Below, piece by piece: positions 9,793 to 15,262 of a stretch of 64,000 nt of DNA (positions within the stretch are counted from its first letter, which is position 1; each line of letters opens with the position of its first letter). The DNA is from Desulfobacterales bacterium (GTDB lineage: Bacteria; Desulfobacterota; Desulfobacteria; Desulfobacterales; JALSRD01). A program made the translations under genes and the position numbers. Below the pieces are notes generated by a model. The model had not been told where the DNA came from and searched no databases. It saw only the letters and a program-made list of their open reading frames with translations. The stretch is from NCBI GenBank assembly GCA_026984935.1, contig JALSRD010000078.1, positions 62,001 through 126,000 of the forward strand. The letters run 5' to 3'.

Positions 9793-9993
9793 GATTTCGT
9801 AAAAAGTCCGGATTTTTCGCTTGCGCAAGCCTCGGCGGAAGCTGTGTACCGTTTTGCCAAATTCTGAAAATGCGTCGCTTTTTCCCTCGAAGTATTTGGG
9901 ATTGTTAACGCTCAGCGATGCACAGCTATGCACAGCGCTTTTCGACGAAAAGTCTTGCGATGCACTCGAAACCGGCTTTTTGCGAGTCTGTCA
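9793..9993. repeat. dispersed repeat family, copy A (about 200 bp)
   Basis: The left end reads GATTTCGTAAAAAGTCCGG and the right end CCGGCTTTTTGCGAGTCTG, an imperfect inverted repeat. Inside is CTTGCGCAAGCCT followed by a block with GTTTTGCCAAATTCTGAAAA. The same ends and CTTGCGCAAGCCT recur in copy B (35358-35447); CTTGNGCAAGCCT and the internal CCAAATTC block recur in reverse orientation in copy C (about 52450-52625). The right end covers the stop codon of the adjacent ATPase gene. The gap 9714-9990 contains nothing else that I can recognise. Confidence 0.75.
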
Positions 9994-11091
9994 ATTCTGT
10001 TCGGATGTAAGCCATCTGCGGAAGAAGGGGTCGTGGATCTTCCAGGTTTTATTTTTGTCTAAAAGGCCGGTTTTTTTGATACCCGCCAATGCAGCGGTGA
10101 CCTGTGAGGCCGTTCTGAAGCCGGTTTTGTTCAGGTTTTGGGCGGCGAATATATTTTTTCCGGCCGTCAGCGCCACGAGTTTCAGCGCCCTTTTCTGGTT
10201 CAGGGTCAACGAATCCCACAGGTAGGCATATTCCGGTGTGCGTTTTGCCACCATCTCGCATTTTACGCGATCGAGGTGCTCGAAGGACGGTTCCCTTGCT
10301 TCCCACAGGTTGAAAAAGAACTCCTGAACATACATGGGGTGGTTCTCGCACAGCGCCACGACCTCTTCGATCAGTGCGTCGGCGATGCTTCTCCCGGCGT
10401 TGCGGTACAGCCTTTTAATCCATTTTGCATAGTCGCGCGTTGGGATTCTGCCCAAAGGAAAACTGGTCGCCAGCAGGTAAAAGGCACGTTTGCGGTCGTT
10501 GAACATCTCCGTGATCAGGTGCTTCTGGCTGCCGGCGAAAATGTAGGCGATCCTGTCGTGTTGCTGGATGGATTTCCGCAGGCGCTTTTCAAAGGCATCC
10601 CCGCCATAGGCGGCGACTTCCTGGAACTCGTCGAAGGCCACCGCCAGCTTCTTTTTTCTGGAAAAGGCCTCGATAACGGCGAACAGTTCGTCGATGGTCT
10701 TGTCCTGCGCCGAGCGGTTGAAGACCGGAGACGCCGTGGGCATTCCGGTCAGCGCGTCGACGCTGAAGTTGAGCCCCACGCTGCGGATTTTTTCGCGGAG
10801 CATCTTCATCAGGCGGTCCATCCGTGACTCCAGCGAGCTGATGCCTTTCAAAAAGGCCGCGATAAACTCGTCGGCATGCGTCGTGCCGTAAAGATCGATG
10901 TAGACCGGCGTGATGTTTTTGAGCTCCCGGAACACTTTCAGGATAAGCGAGCTTTTGCCGTAGCGCCGGTGGGAGTAAAGCAGTACGTTCTGCGAACTTT
11001 CGATGTAGCGCCGCATTTCCCGGCGCTCTTTGAGCCGGTCGCAGAAAGCAGGCTCGGCGACAACTCCTGAAAAGCGAAACGGGTTCGGCAT
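9991..11091 (-). CDS. archaeal-type STAND ATPase (AAA/NTPase with C-terminal winged helix)
   Basis: A 366-residue protein. An N-terminal segment FRFSGVVAEPAFCDR precedes a P-loop (LLYSHRRYGKSSLILKVF); Walker B is KLAVAFDEFQEV and the sensor region IAYIFAGSQKHLI. The C-terminal ~100 residues (SLTLNQKRALKLVAL...TASQVTAALAGIKKTGLL...WKIHDPFFRRWL) look like a winged helix. This is the archaeal ATPase (MNS/STAND) family, frequent in archaea and patchy in bacteria, usually of unknown role in signalling, defence or mobile elements. AGGAAAGGAC precedes the ATG. Codon use looks less GC-biased than its neighbours, in keeping with horizontal transfer. Its stop codon lies within the end of a dispersed repeat. 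Confidence 0.85.
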   Translation of the reverse strand: MPNPFRFSGVVAEPAFCDRLKERREMRRYIESSQNVLLYSHRRYGKSSLILKVFRELKNITPVYIDLYGTTHADEFIAAFLKGISSLESRMDRLMKMLREKIRSVGLNFSVDALTGMPTASPVFNRSAQDKTIDELFAVIEAFSRKKKLAVAFDEFQEVAAYGGDAFEKRLRKSIQQHDRIAYIFAGSQKHLITEMFNDRKRAFYLLATSFPLGRIPTRDYAKWIKRLYRNAGRSIADALIEEVVALCENHPMYVQEFFFNLWEAREPSFEHLDRVKCEMVAKRTPEYAYLWDSLTLNQKRALKLVALTAGKNIFAAQNLNKTGFRTASQVTAALAGIKKTGLLDKNKTWKIHDPFFRRWLTSEQN

Positions 11092-11606
11092 GTCCTTTCC
11101 TCCAATTTAATTCAACGTCGCATATACGGCGCGGCAATTCATGCGAAAAACAGCTTTACCGCCATTGGCCGGCTTGCCGTAGAGGGCCGCTGGCGGCTTA
11201 ATCCAGTACGGCTTCTGTTTTTGCCCCTTGGGTTGACTCTGTGGGAGGGCCGACGGCACTGCCGTTATCACGACATAGTAGTAAAGGACGACAGCTACAG
11301 CCTCGATGCCCTGGCCTGCAGTACCCCGATTATTGTAACGTCAGCGTTTACGTAATGCCAGACTCATCTTGAAGGTAAATATATTACGTAATTAGCGTAA
11401 TGTCAACCGGTGTTTGGGCGCCCGCCGGTACACCGAGAAGAGGGCGGCTTTAGGTGATTCTCGCGTGGCCGGTTTTCCCCGTCAGGTCTGAGCGTACTCT
11501 GATTTTGCTCCCCTGCTTTCAGCGGAATAGGGGCCTGTGGAAACCGGCGGAAGCGGTAGGGTTCGCGTGTGCAAAAGGCTGCAAACGGCTTTTGAAAATG
11601 CGCGCG
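11092..11606. other. intergenic region with degraded open frame
   Basis: About 500 bases. On the minus strand, upstream of the ATPase gene, a promoter (11378-11406) is followed by an ATG at 11367 that opens only eight codons (MSLALRKR) before TGA. Beyond that TGA the same frame stays open for about 75 codons without another start near its beginning. It could be a decayed gene or a non-coding leader; I recognise no family. The part from 11410 to 11606 shows nothing I can name. Confidence 0.35.
11378..11406 (-). promoter_or_regulatory. sigma70 promoter with internal operator dyad, upstream of the STAND ATPase
   Basis: On the minus strand TTGACA is separated by exactly 17 bases from TATATT. The whole spacer is an inverted repeat with arms TTACG and CGTAA around a 7-base centre. 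A repressor bound there would sit between -35 and -10. A further ATTACGTAA lies just downstream. The transcript would run through the degraded frame into the ATPase gene. Confidence 0.6.
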
Positions 11607-11960
11607 TTACAGAAAAGTGGATCCGATCCAGGTGGCGATGCGGTTGCCGGCCACCACGAAAAGGGCGATGATAAAAGTTTCGACAGCCACCTTGGTGCTG
11701 ACCGAAGTCAGGATGACGGCCGCCGCCAGGTCGGTGGCGACGGCAAGGCCCAGGCCGGCCATGAGGCCCCAGTGGCGGATCATCCAGGTCATCAGGATGA
11801 GCAGCGGGATGCTGGCAAAGGTCCCCAGGATCACCAGCCAGTAAATGGAAAAGGGCGCCTGCTTGTTGAGCAGGTTGGTCATGGCGCCCAGCCGGGGGCA
11901 CACCACGAAAAAGGCAAAGGCGGACAGTGTGACCACGTAGGAAAGCAGACTTTCGTTCAT
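11607..11960 (-). CDS. small four-span inner membrane protein, last gene of the MerR operon
   Basis: A 117-residue hydrophobic protein with about four membrane segments (residues 5-24, 34-56, 58-80 and 87-108). The N-terminal span contains a single cysteine in VVCPRLGAMTN. The start at 11960 (MNESLLSYVV) is supported by AGGAG 10 bases upstream; the frame stays open further upstream without support. It follows the NHL lipoprotein gene by 52 bases in the same direction and is the last gene under the MerR-type promoter at 15.2 kb. It lacks the vicinal cysteine pair of MerT, so it is not a recognisable mercuric transporter. I do not know the family; an ion-conducting or anchoring role in the operon's envelope system is possible. 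Confidence 0.8.
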   Translation of the reverse strand: MNESLLSYVVTLSAFAFFVVCPRLGAMTNLLNKQAPFSIYWLVILGTFASIPLLILMTWMIRHWGLMAGLGLAVATDLAAAVILTSVSTKVAVETFIIALFVVAGNRIATWIGSTFL

Positions 11961-12012
11961 AAGGGGGGTTGCTCCTTTTTGTTCCGGGTTTGATTTTTGC
12001 CGGCGAAGCGAA

Positions 12013-12999
12013 TTATCGTTCGGGACGGGGTGCGGCGGCAGGTGCAAACTCCTGGATGCGGTTGTTGCCGAAATCCACTATGTACACCTTGCCGGCACCG
12101 TCCGCGGCGACGTCCACCGGGCGGTCGAAAAGGCCGGGCGCCGTTCCGCGGCTGCCGAAGGCCGTTAAAAAGCTGCCGTCGGCGGAAAACTTCTGGATGC
12201 GGTGGTTGTAGAAGTCCGCCACAAAAACATGGCTTCGGGCATCGGTGGCCACGGCCGTGGCCGTTTTGAACCAGCCGTTGAAGCCGCCGGAGATGTTCAG
12301 CGCCAGCGGTCCGCCCCATTTTCGAAGATAGGTGCCGGCTTCGGAAAACACCTGCACGCGGTCGTTGTACGCATCGGCTACGACCAGGTCGCCGGAGGGC
12401 AGCAGCGCGGCATCGGTGGGGTAGTTGAAGCGGCCGGCCGCAATTCCCTTTTTGCCGGTCGTACCGTACTGCCGGATGAACTTCCCGGCGGCATCCAGCA
12501 CCTGCACGCGCTGGTTGAAAAAATCGGCCACATAGAGCCGGCCGGCAGCGTCCACGGACACACCGGCGGGGCCGTCGAAGCGGCCCGCCGCCTTGCCCGC
12601 GCCGCCGATGGAGAAAAGCGCGCGGCCCTTTGTTGAAAAGACCTGGATGCGGTCGTTTGAAAAATCCGCCACGTAGAGCCGCGGGCCGGATAGCGCCAGG
12701 TGCATGGGCCGCTGCAGTTGGCCGGGGCCGCTGCCGGATCTGCCGAACTGCCTCAGAAAGCGGCCCTTTAGGTCAAACACCTGGATGCGGTTATTGCCGG
12801 TGTCGCTGACAAAAACTTCGGAGGCCGATACGGCGATACCCACCGGCGCGTTGAACTGTCCCGGACCCTTTCCGGCCGAACCCCAGACCTGCACCAGGCG
12901 GTAGGGCGGCTCCTGCGGGCCTGGAAACCAGGTGCAGCCGGAAAGCAGGGACAATGCCAGCATGAAGCAGGGCTGCAGGCGGGTCAACAGGCGTTTCAT
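12013..12999 (-). CDS. NHL-repeat lipoprotein (six-bladed propeller)
   Basis: A 328-residue protein. The N-terminus MKRLLTRLQPCFMLALSLLSGC is a lipoprotein signal with lipobox LLSGC, so it is exported and lipid-anchored. Six NHL repeats follow, each with a core such as GPGQFNAPVGIAV...FVSDTGNNRIQVFD, giving a complete six-bladed beta-propeller. NHL propellers usually bind proteins or other ligands and have no fixed catalytic role. Its ATG overlaps the stop of the outer-membrane barrel gene by one base (TGATG), indicating translational coupling. The protein therefore probably acts at the outer membrane with that barrel. No propeller catalytic residues are evident. Confidence 0.9.
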   Translation of the reverse strand: MKRLLTRLQPCFMLALSLLSGCTWFPGPQEPPYRLVQVWGSAGKGPGQFNAPVGIAVSASEVFVSDTGNNRIQVFDLKGRFLRQFGRSGSGPGQLQRPMHLALSGPRLYVADFSNDRIQVFSTKGRALFSIGGAGKAAGRFDGPAGVSVDAAGRLYVADFFNQRVQVLDAAGKFIRQYGTTGKKGIAAGRFNYPTDAALLPSGDLVVADAYNDRVQVFSEAGTYLRKWGGPLALNISGGFNGWFKTATAVATDARSHVFVADFYNHRIQKFSADGSFLTAFGSRGTAPGLFDRPVDVAADGAGKVYIVDFGNNRIQEFAPAAAPRPER

Positions 13000-13931
13000 C
13001 AGAAATTGACACGCACACTGAAGGTGCCGATAAAGTCATTTTCCAGCGCCTGGCCGTTGAGGTCCTGGAAAACCGGCAGTTGAATCGCGGCTTCCACGAC
13101 CATGCGCCGCGTGACGTACTGCAGGCCGGGGGCCACATAGAAGGTCGTGCCGCCGGAGTCCGGATCGTCGATACCGGCCGACACGTTTTTGGCGCGCTGC
13201 ACCAGGTTGCCTTCGAGCACCCCGTAAACAAAGGCCGGCACGCCCGTGCGCAGCGTGCGGGGCCACAGGCGGTACTGAAAGGATGCGTCCAGCCGAATTT
13301 CTTCGCCGAAGCGGAAATCGTCGGCGCGCGTATTGTACTGGTACGCCGCCGCAGCGTCAAATTCCCAGCCCAGGGTCTGCCACGTGGCCACGACACCCGC
13401 AAAAGGATCCCAGGACCCCGAGCCCGGCTGCAGCGGCCGGGGCAGGCGGCCGGAGTCGTCGGCCGCATCGTCTCTGCCGGTGGGCGTTTCCAGGCCTGCA
13501 AAGGGAGCGATGCGCAGGGTGCGCCCCGGCCGATCCCGCTGCCAGAGCGTGTAGCGCGCGAACAGCCGCAGGTCTCCAATTCCGGCAACACTGCGGCTGC
13601 GCCGTCCCGCCGGCAGGCTCGCATCGAGTTTTTTGTTTAGGATCGGCAGCACAGCAAAGGCTGCCAGACGGGGCGTCAGTCCGTACACCCCCACGATGGG
13701 GAAAGCCCACACATCGAGCCGGCGGTCCGCCGGGGTGGGGTCGTCGCCGGCGTGCAGGTATTTCGACTGCACGCGCATGACGGTCTCACCTTTGGCCACG
13801 GGTAGCGCCGTATTGAAGGTGATCGGTGCCGCCAAGGCAGCGGGTGCCGTCAGCGCCGCAGCCGCCGCCAGCACGGCGGCCAGCGGGATCCAAGATCCGC
13901 GGGGATGTTTTGGGGTCATCTTTCTGGCCAT
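12999..13931 (-). CDS. outer-membrane beta-barrel protein (meta-pathway/transporter-like)
   Basis: A 310-residue protein with a signal peptide (AAALTAPAALAAPITF) and alternating beta-strand patterns throughout, ending VRVNF with a terminal phenylalanine as needed for outer-membrane insertion. The overall look, with TFNTALPVAKGETVMRVQS at the start and repeated YGL/FAVLPI strands, fits the PF13557-like 'transporter' barrels found next to metal or aromatic-compound genes. Its start lies inside the 3' end of the HMA-protein gene (16-base overlap), and its stop is coupled to the NHL lipoprotein. It may form a pore or an adhesion site for the lipoprotein. The ligand is unknown. Confidence 0.85.
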   Translation of the reverse strand: MARKMTPKHPRGSWIPLAAVLAAAAALTAPAALAAPITFNTALPVAKGETVMRVQSKYLHAGDDPTPADRRLDVWAFPIVGVYGLTPRLAAFAVLPILNKKLDASLPAGRRSRSVAGIGDLRLFARYTLWQRDRPGRTLRIAPFAGLETPTGRDDAADDSGRLPRPLQPGSGSWDPFAGVVATWQTLGWEFDAAAAYQYNTRADDFRFGEEIRLDASFQYRLWPRTLRTGVPAFVYGVLEGNLVQRAKNVSAGIDDPDSGGTTFYVAPGLQYVTRRMVVEAAIQLPVFQDLNGQALENDFIGTFSVRVNF

Positions 13932-14455
13932 GGGCCCCCTTTCCGGACGCGCTGCGGTGTGATCGTCGGCCGGGCATCCTGCTGTGGCGGGTGAAAGATT
14001 CCCGTGATCCGGACATGGCCTTCTTTCGCAAGTCGATACAGTTGTTCCTGCAGATCTTTTCCGGGATCTTGCAGGCGATAGACTTCCTTTGAGCGGTCGT
14101 CTTCGACAAACCAGCCTCCCTGCCGGTCCATTTTAACCGGTCCGACGATGACGACTTCGATGACGCCGGGCGTAAATCCGGCCTGGCGGATGGCCGCGGG
14201 TATTTCAGAGATGCGGATGGTCTTCCCCGCGAGAGCGTCCATACGCGCCTTGCCGCCCTTGAGGTCCACGGTAACGGATTTGACGCCGGACACTTCCTTG
14301 AGCTTTTTTTCGACGCCGAAGGCGCAGAAAGGACAGGACATGCCGTCAACGGCGACAACGGCGCTGCGCACGCCGGCTGCGGCCGGAGCGGCCCTTAAGG
14401 CCGGCGCCAGAAAGATCGCCGTGATCAGCAGCAGTGTCAGTTTCAAGGGTTTCAT
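13916..14455 (-). CDS. periplasmic heavy-metal-associated (HMA) domain protein
   Basis: A 179-residue protein. Signal peptide MKPLKLTLLLITAIFLAPALRA is followed by an HMA ferredoxin-like fold with metal site GMSCPFCAFGVEK (Cys41 and Cys44), similar to MerP and CopZ. After about residue 100 there is a second region (VIVGPVKMDRQGGWFVED...) not found in MerP, so the protein is more than twice MerP's mature size. A periplasmic metal-binding role is likely, with soft metals such as Hg, Cu or Cd. The ATG at 14455 has AGAAGG upstream. It lies 63 bases after the thioredoxin-fold gene and overlaps the barrel gene. Confidence 0.88.
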   Translation of the reverse strand: MKPLKLTLLLITAIFLAPALRAAPAAAGVRSAVVAVDGMSCPFCAFGVEKKLKEVSGVKSVTVDLKGGKARMDALAGKTIRISEIPAAIRQAGFTPGVIEVVIVGPVKMDRQGGWFVEDDRSKEVYRLQDPGKDLQEQLYRLAKEGHVRITGIFHPPQQDARPTITPQRVRKGGPWPER

Positions 14456-14518
14456 GGGCGCCTTCTTTTCTGTGCAACGCTGCGGGTAAAGGGGCCAAGG
14501 CCCCTTTACCATTCGGCC

Positions 14519-14788
14519 TTACGGCAGCGCCTGGCCGAGTCCGGCGGCTTTCAGCGTGTTTTCGTCGGGTCCCCGGTCTGCACAGCAGCCGGCCAGTTTG
14601 CCGTCGATCACCACGGCCGGAACCGAACGGATGCCCAGCTTCCGGGCCTGTGCGGCCACCGCCGCATCGTGCATGTCGAGAACCTTAACCTCACAGTCCG
14701 GACAGGCATTGCGCCGGACCATTTCCACCGTTTCCGCGCACAGGCTGCAGCCGGCGCTGAAGACTTCAACTTTGCGTTTGGCATTCAC
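14519..14788 (-). CDS. thioredoxin-fold protein with six cysteines, MerR operon
   Basis: An 89-residue cytoplasmic thioredoxin/glutaredoxin-like protein. The active-site CxxC is in FSAGCSLCAET (Cys14 and Cys17), the cis-proline in RSVPAVV, and two further pairs are present: CPDC (29/32) and a vicinal CC (68/69) in KLAGCCADRG. Six thiols in 89 residues suggest binding or transfer of a soft metal ion, or dithiol exchange, rather than ordinary thioredoxin function. The start is GTG; upstream is a very long Shine-Dalgarno, AAGGAGGTGATC, complementary to 12 bases of the 16S rRNA tail, which suggests strong expression. It directly follows merR with a 23-base gap. Confidence 0.88.
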   Translation of the reverse strand: MNAKRKVEVFSAGCSLCAETVEMVRRNACPDCEVKVLDMHDAAVAAQARKLGIRSVPAVVIDGKLAGCCADRGPDENTLKAAGLGQALP

Positions 14789-14811
14789 GAGATCACCTCC
14801 TTTTTATAGCA

Positions 14812-15210
14812 CTATGTATCCAGGGCCGCCAGAATGGGGCAGTTGCGCAACGGCCCGCGGCCCGGGCAGTTCGTTTCCAGCTGTTGCAGGACCTCCAGTA
14901 TCTTTTGCAAAGCTGCGATTTTCTTTTGCACATCCGCCATCTTGGACTGAATGCGCTGCCGTACGTCGCGGCAGCTGCCGCCGGCTTCAGCCCTGATGGA
15001 AAGCAGGTCGGCGATTTCCGTAAGCGAGAAACCCAGCGCCTGGGTGGATTTGATAAACCGGAGGCGCCGCAGGTCGTCCGGGGCGTATTGCCGGTGGCCG
15101 CTGGGATTGCGTGGCGGTTTGGGCAAAACCCCCCTGCGTTCATAGTAGCGCACCGTCGCCGGATTCACTTGGGCCGCTTGGGCCAGTTGAGCGATGGTGT
15201 AAACTCTCAT
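14812..15210 (-). CDS. MerR-family metal-responsive regulator, mercury-type cysteines
   Basis: A 132-residue MerR-family activator. An N-terminal winged helix (YTIAQLAQAAQVNPATVRYY, then GHRQYAPDDLRRL) is followed by the dimerisation helix and a metal loop. Cysteines are at 80 (GGSCRDV), 115 (TNCPGRG) and 124 (RNCPIL). The spacing of 35 and 9 residues equals that of Tn501 MerR (Cys82, 117, 126), where the three cysteines bind Hg(II); this argues for a mercury or closely related soft-metal sensor. It is the first gene of a six-gene operon and has a classic MerR-type 19-bp-spacer promoter directly upstream, so it probably also controls itself. Confidence 0.93.
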   Translation of the reverse strand: MRVYTIAQLAQAAQVNPATVRYYERRGVLPKPPRNPSGHRQYAPDDLRRLRFIKSTQALGFSLTEIADLLSIRAEAGGSCRDVRQRIQSKMADVQKKIAALQKILEVLQQLETNCPGRGPLRNCPILAALDT

Positions 15211-15231
15211 GACTTCTACCCTCCCGTAAAG

Positions 15232-15262
15232 ACTATAAGGTCTGCACCTGAGTGCAGGTCAA
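15232..15262 (-). promoter_or_regulatory. MerR-type promoter/operator (19-bp spacer) of the metal operon
   Basis: On the minus strand -35 TTGACC and -10 TATAGT are separated by 19 bases, the over-long spacer that MerR activators correct by twisting DNA. The spacer contains the dyad CTGCAC-TCAG-GTGCAG. The start codon of merR lies 22 bases after the -10. Confidence 0.9.

Follow-up and report, generated by a model that had tools for sequence, protein, structure and literature searches.

A MerR-controlled operon encoding a periplasmic HMA protein, an outer-membrane barrel and an NHL propeller as a putative mercury-linked trans-envelope module

Mercury resistance has been described as a process of the inner membrane and the cytoplasm, with passage through the outer membrane assumed to be passive, and we know of no protein of the mer system that has been assigned to the outer-membrane step. 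Outer-membrane channels of the COG4313 family are 12-stranded and narrow and have been implicated in the uptake of hydrophobic molecules (PMC4493636). Here we analyzed a stretch of 64,000 nucleotides (the window) that carries an operon in which a barrel of this type is encoded together with a mer-type regulator. We lean towards reading this operon as a trans-envelope module under MerR control that is linked to mercury, or possibly to soft metals more broadly, and would act beside the classical mer system.

The operon is located on the minus strand of the window (15262-11607) and starts with a MerR-type promoter/operator (15232..15262, minus strand), in which TTGACC and TATAGT are separated by a 19-nt spacer. 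The promoter contains the dyad CTGCAC-TCAG-GTGCAG with two 6-bp arms and a 4-nt centre, and such a long-spacer promoter with a dyad is what is expected of a mer operon. No such element arose when the upstream region of 200 bp was shuffled base by base 200,000 times, and the same promoter architecture precedes the related operons in loci L069, L086, L022, L053 and L065. The genes that follow are tightly packed: the MerR gene and the thioredoxin gene are 23 bp apart, the thioredoxin and HMA genes 63 bp, and the NHL gene and the sixth gene 52 bp, while the HMA and barrel genes overlap by 16 bp and the stop codon of the barrel gene overlaps the NHL start. The gene parts, their order, the three regulator cysteines and the promoter with its dyad, all listed in the original prediction for this DNA, are each present in the window sequence.

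The regulator (14812..15210, minus strand) is a MerR-family protein of 132 aa with cysteines at positions 80, 115 and 124 and no others. Aligned with the solved proteins 4ua1 (a Bacillus-type MerR) and 5crl (a mercury MerR), they match the three cysteines of each, with the predicted mer-type spacing of 35 and 9. The best NCBIfam model is TIGR02051 MerR with 131 bits, which is under the curated cut-off of 150.85; ZntR models come next with 109-113 bits. Most gammaproteobacterial modules encode a different regulator class that is devoid of the first metal cysteine of MerR and scores best to ZntR/CueR (L003:10902-11303 and L022:4351-4752; also L051, L053, L054, L056, L058, L060 and L061). The gene for this class stands at the end of the module, and the protein carries a C-terminal C-x5-GCPI motif. 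At the operon start, L053, L022 and L065 have a dyad of the CTGGAG-N4-CTCCAG type, with full or five-base arms.

Downstream of the regulator, a thioredoxin-fold protein of 89 aa (PF13192; 14519..14788, minus strand) contains six cysteines at positions 14, 17, 29, 32, 68 and 69, forming two CxxC motifs and a CC pair, a pattern that is kept in L086. It is predicted to be cytoplasmic; inspection of the sequence by eye revealed no signal peptide. The next gene encodes a predicted periplasmic HMA protein of 179 aa (PF00403; 13916..14455, minus strand) with a CPFC metal motif (C41, C44). Its score against the MerP model (NCBIfam TIGR02052) is 30.6 bits, below the cut-off of 92.55, and copper chaperones are better matches to the HMA domain than MerP is. 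A C-terminal extension of about 80 aa (13916-14160) is absent from most homologues.

The outer-membrane beta-barrel (PF13557 / COG4313-like, 310 aa, no cysteine; 12999..13931, minus strand) scores 62.6 bits against the Pfam family Phenol_MetA_deg (PF13557), for which the gathering score is 22. The strand count of its structural model fits the 12-stranded type and the best PDB matches are FapF and Pput2725 (4rl8), although confidence in the model is low (pLDDT 60). The following gene encodes an NHL-repeat lipoprotein of 328 aa (12013..12999, minus strand) with the lipobox LLSGC (C22) and six Pfam NHL stretches, modelled as a six-bladed propeller (pLDDT 87) that is close in structure to the NHL domains of Thin and TRIM71. 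The membrane anchor of this protein varies: a lipobox is found in the window, L021 and L067, and in most gammaproteobacterial loci a W-IPS-EP-type motif follows a helix at the N-terminus. In L004 (8878-9853) and L067 (8479-9382) the NHL gene is split into two frames, which reflects either a genuine interruption or an error in the assembly. In the barrel set no cysteine is conserved and any histidine is conserved in at most about half of the proteins; the NHL set likewise has no conserved cysteine and no histidine conserved beyond about half, and one methionine is kept. Conserved thiols of the module are thus restricted to the HMA and thioredoxin proteins, which suggests that the barrel is probably a conduit and the propeller a scaffold.

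The sixth gene (11607..11960, minus strand) encodes a small membrane protein with three transmembrane segments; its start is best read as the ATG at 11960, giving 117 aa. No counterpart was found in the related loci, and only three distant homologues (L088, L089 and L090) were present in 242 relatives; in two genomes of the order, the homologue immediately follows a feoB-like gene. We therefore rejected this gene as a member of the module and regard it as a lineage-specific addition from a rare family. The six frames of the predicted six-gene operon exist as described, but the conserved core consists of five genes. Beyond the operon, an ATPase gene (9991-11091) is preceded, at about 11330-11410 of the window, by a strong sigma-70-like promoter (11/12) accompanied by repeats of a palindrome resembling TTACGTAA.

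We investigated the distribution of the barrel in several genome samples. The window genome is the sole positive of 194 genomes from its order, the barrel being absent from the 193 others sampled; a sampled relative of the same genus is without it, and a search for the HMA protein gave no match in 57 other genomes of the order. Barrel-positive genomes amount to 8 of 395 in a sample of the phylum (own genome counted), 16 of 369 in a sample of the gammaproteobacterial class and 6 of 295 in one order of that class, E-value limits that also let in some weak relatives applying to all three counts. A contig scan with the barrel returned two named loci; one Cellvibrionaceae and one Pseudomonadales genome are the named examples. 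The combination of HMA, barrel and NHL genes recurs in Gammaproteobacteria and in other members of the phylum of the window. To compare neighbourhoods, genes within 8.5 kb were recorded for 24 loci with strong barrels (at least 42% identity) and for a weak-barrel control of only eight loci. An HMA gene was found at 23 of the 24 strong loci, an NHL gene at 15 (it is missing at nine) and a gene for a MerR-type regulator also at 15, versus none of the eight control loci in each case.

The closest arrangement is found in L086, from a different family of the same phylum, which has the exact order MerR-Trx-HMA-barrel-NHL behind the operator CCCTGTAC-CGGG-GTACAGGG, of the form GTAC-N4-GTAC with the core GTAC-CGGG-GTAC. 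In L069, MerR-Trx-MerT-MerP is followed by HMA-barrel-NHL on one strand, and in gammaproteobacterial versions a gene for a CcdA/DsbD-type protein comes after the thioredoxin gene. The conserved neighbourhood proposed as a check of the prediction was thus found in distant relatives, although relatives of the same order are without the module. In a barrel tree the window protein groups with members of its own phylum, and at least two changes between phyla are forced, an indication that the module has moved horizontally.

Related genes were also searched for on plasmids. On the Marinobacter salarius plasmid pSMR5, genes for an HMA protein, CcdA and a P-type ATPase accompany a truncated barrel (L006:8604-9330), and at a distance of about 4 kb the plasmid carries an Hg(II)-responsive merR together with a Tn3 transposase gene. 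The plasmid barrels of Ruegeria and Manganitrophus (first Manganitrophus locus inspected) were weak matches and were left out. Searching plasmids with the NHL protein by tblastn yielded generic NHL proteins only.

Genes for MerA, MerT or MerT-like proteins lie within 8.5 kb of 15 of the 24 strong barrels and of none of the eight weak ones (p=0.002). A MerT-like gene occurs together with HMA and barrel genes at eight loci; a complete set of merR, merT, merP and merA adjoins the module in L021 and L054, merA adjoins it in L055, L057 and L067, and merT in L003, L057 and L058. MerA above the curated cut-off was detected in 14 of 23 barrel-positive genomes versus 1 of 26 barrel-negative ones (p=1.4e-5), the latter being chosen manually within the same searched sets, with no phylogenetic matching; several of the nine positive genomes without MerA are draft genomes. 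L086, with a gene order identical to that of the window, has no MerA above the cut-off.

The window operon itself contains no merA and no match to MerT, as had been predicted. However, the genome of the window encodes a second mercury locus on another contig (L082:7616-12040, corresponding to about 35.6-40.0 kb of G000:C37). The MerA of this locus scores above the curated cut-off and has a CC motif at its C-terminus, and an ECF sigma/zinc-finger pair precedes a MerT-MerP fusion. Reduction is therefore missing from the operon and not from the cell. The predicted envelope system, controlled by MerR, reaching from the cytoplasm to the outer membrane and linked to mercury or soft metals, is supported; the claim that it works without reduction fails at the genome level, given MerA and the MerT-MerP fusion on C37 and MerA in 14 of 23 other barrel-positive genomes. 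At the C37 locus, the ECF sigma factor gene and genes for a zf-HC2-like protein and the MerT-MerP fusion are divergent from a group that encodes MerA, a fragment of a CopZ-type zinc domain and a DsrE-like protein. The genes next to this locus are sigma-factor and not merR genes; a DsrE-like gene comes after merA in L067 too. As judged from these gene associations, mercury is the best-supported candidate substrate of the module.

The barrel and the propeller might lie beside a minimal MerR-Trx-HMA unit by chance, or might be cargo without a link to it, such as a channel for the uptake of aromatic compounds, that is transcribed with this unit; PF13557 is mostly tied to the uptake of hydrophobic compounds, and NHL proteins are common. 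The presence of HMA and NHL genes at strong and not at weak loci, the overlap of the genes and the recurrence of the same set in two bacterial phyla largely refute this reading and make it very improbable. The module could also serve some other soft metal, for example Cu(I)/Ag(I) or Zn/Cd/Pb, its mer neighbourhood merely reflecting the frequent clustering of metal resistance genes on mobile DNA. The regulators devoid of the first cysteine, which score best to ZntR/CueR, and the genes for a CusA-type RND pump next to four of the loci make copper or silver possible; in addition, the HMA domain is closer to copper chaperones than to MerP. Against this stand the three-cysteine MerR and mer-type operators of the window, L069 and L086, the eight loci with a MerT-like gene beside HMA and barrel, and the genome-wide enrichment of MerA, and we consider another metal unlikely.

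Efflux or periplasmic detoxification independent of MerA, in line with the original prediction, in which the HMA protein would trap Hg(II) or another soft metal in the periplasm and the barrel would let the metal out through the outer membrane, fits the lack of an inner-membrane carrier in the window operon, the lack of MerA above the cut-off in L086 and in eight other positive genomes, and the proximity of several loci to genes for P-type ATPases or CusA pumps. Yet the operon encodes no energy source, those COG4313 channels to which a role has been assigned serve uptake (PMC4493636), and MerA and MerT, proteins of import and reduction, are strongly enriched, which renders this explanation rather unlikely. 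Regarding direction, import toward MerA is slightly favoured over export or periplasmic trapping because of the association with MerA and MerT and the uptake role of COG4313 channels.

For the mercury-linked module we propose the following mechanism. MerR would bind Hg(II) in the cytoplasm and switch on the operon. The 12-stranded, COG4313-type barrel might provide a narrow path through the outer membrane for small neutral or complexed mercury species, and the periplasmic HMA protein could take the metal on its CPFC thiols in a MerP-like manner, held together with the barrel by the membrane-anchored NHL propeller, which has no conserved thiol or imidazole ligand. The metal would then be handed to an inner-membrane MerT-type carrier and to MerA, here encoded on another contig, while the cysteine-rich thioredoxin protein may buffer Hg(II) or keep partner thiols reduced in the cytoplasm. 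In Gammaproteobacteria, the CcdA/DsbD-type protein could relay reducing power to the periplasm. We tentatively propose that a dedicated outer-membrane channel and a periplasmic scaffold may be part of bacterial mercury resistance: an HMA-barrel-NHL cassette that has spread horizontally and is subject to MerR-type regulation would carry mercury through the outer membrane. If true, such a conserved, regulated module with an outer-membrane barrel of its own would add a step to mercury handling; it would be relevant to the uptake of mercury by anaerobes, where methylation is governed by uptake, and the module supplies a testable gene set in Gammaproteobacteria.

The original prediction knew of no described system of such composition, and we likewise found none in the open-access literature (subscription journals being outside the search), where the combination is not described and searches for NHL or propeller proteins with mercury, MerR or mercuric reductase returned nothing relevant. 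NHL proteins are mentioned neither in a survey of mer diversity (PMC8261052) nor in the text on MerG/orf4/orf5 of strain K-62 (PMC3737084).

Among known systems, the classical mer operon (merR-T-P-A, Tn501/Tn21 type) shares with the window operon the spacing of the three MerR cysteines and the long-spacer promoter with a 4-nt-centred dyad; the periplasmic HMA protein would hold the role of MerP, and mer genes adjoin several homologous loci. In contrast to the classical operon, the window operon is without merT and merA and adds a thioredoxin, an outer-membrane barrel and an NHL propeller, and its HMA protein is extended at the C-terminus and carries the CPFC motif. Efflux loci regulated by ZntR, CueR or CadR have MerR-family regulation in common with the module, whose gammaproteobacterial regulators are nearest to ZntR/CueR, and like some module loci they have CusA or P-type ATPase neighbours, whereas the window operon contains no efflux pump and its regulator is MerR-like. 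COG4313/PF13557 channels (Pput2725 4rl8, SphA and TcpY) and FapF resemble the window barrel in length, in PF13557 membership and, according to a structure search with the low-confidence model, in the 12-stranded fold, but identity to solved members is about 13-17%, and the window barrel is paired with an HMA protein and COG4313 channels with aromatic or sphingosine gene sets. The fold of the NHL protein, from a high-confidence model, is that of the propellers of Thin, TRIM71 and Brat and of the lumenal NHL domain of SOQ1; unlike these, the window protein is bacterial, predicted to be membrane-anchored in the periplasm and encoded in a metal operon, with no RNA or ubiquitin context. Taken together, we regard the module as a real and apparently undescribed variant of a mer-type system, built from known component families under mer-type regulation.
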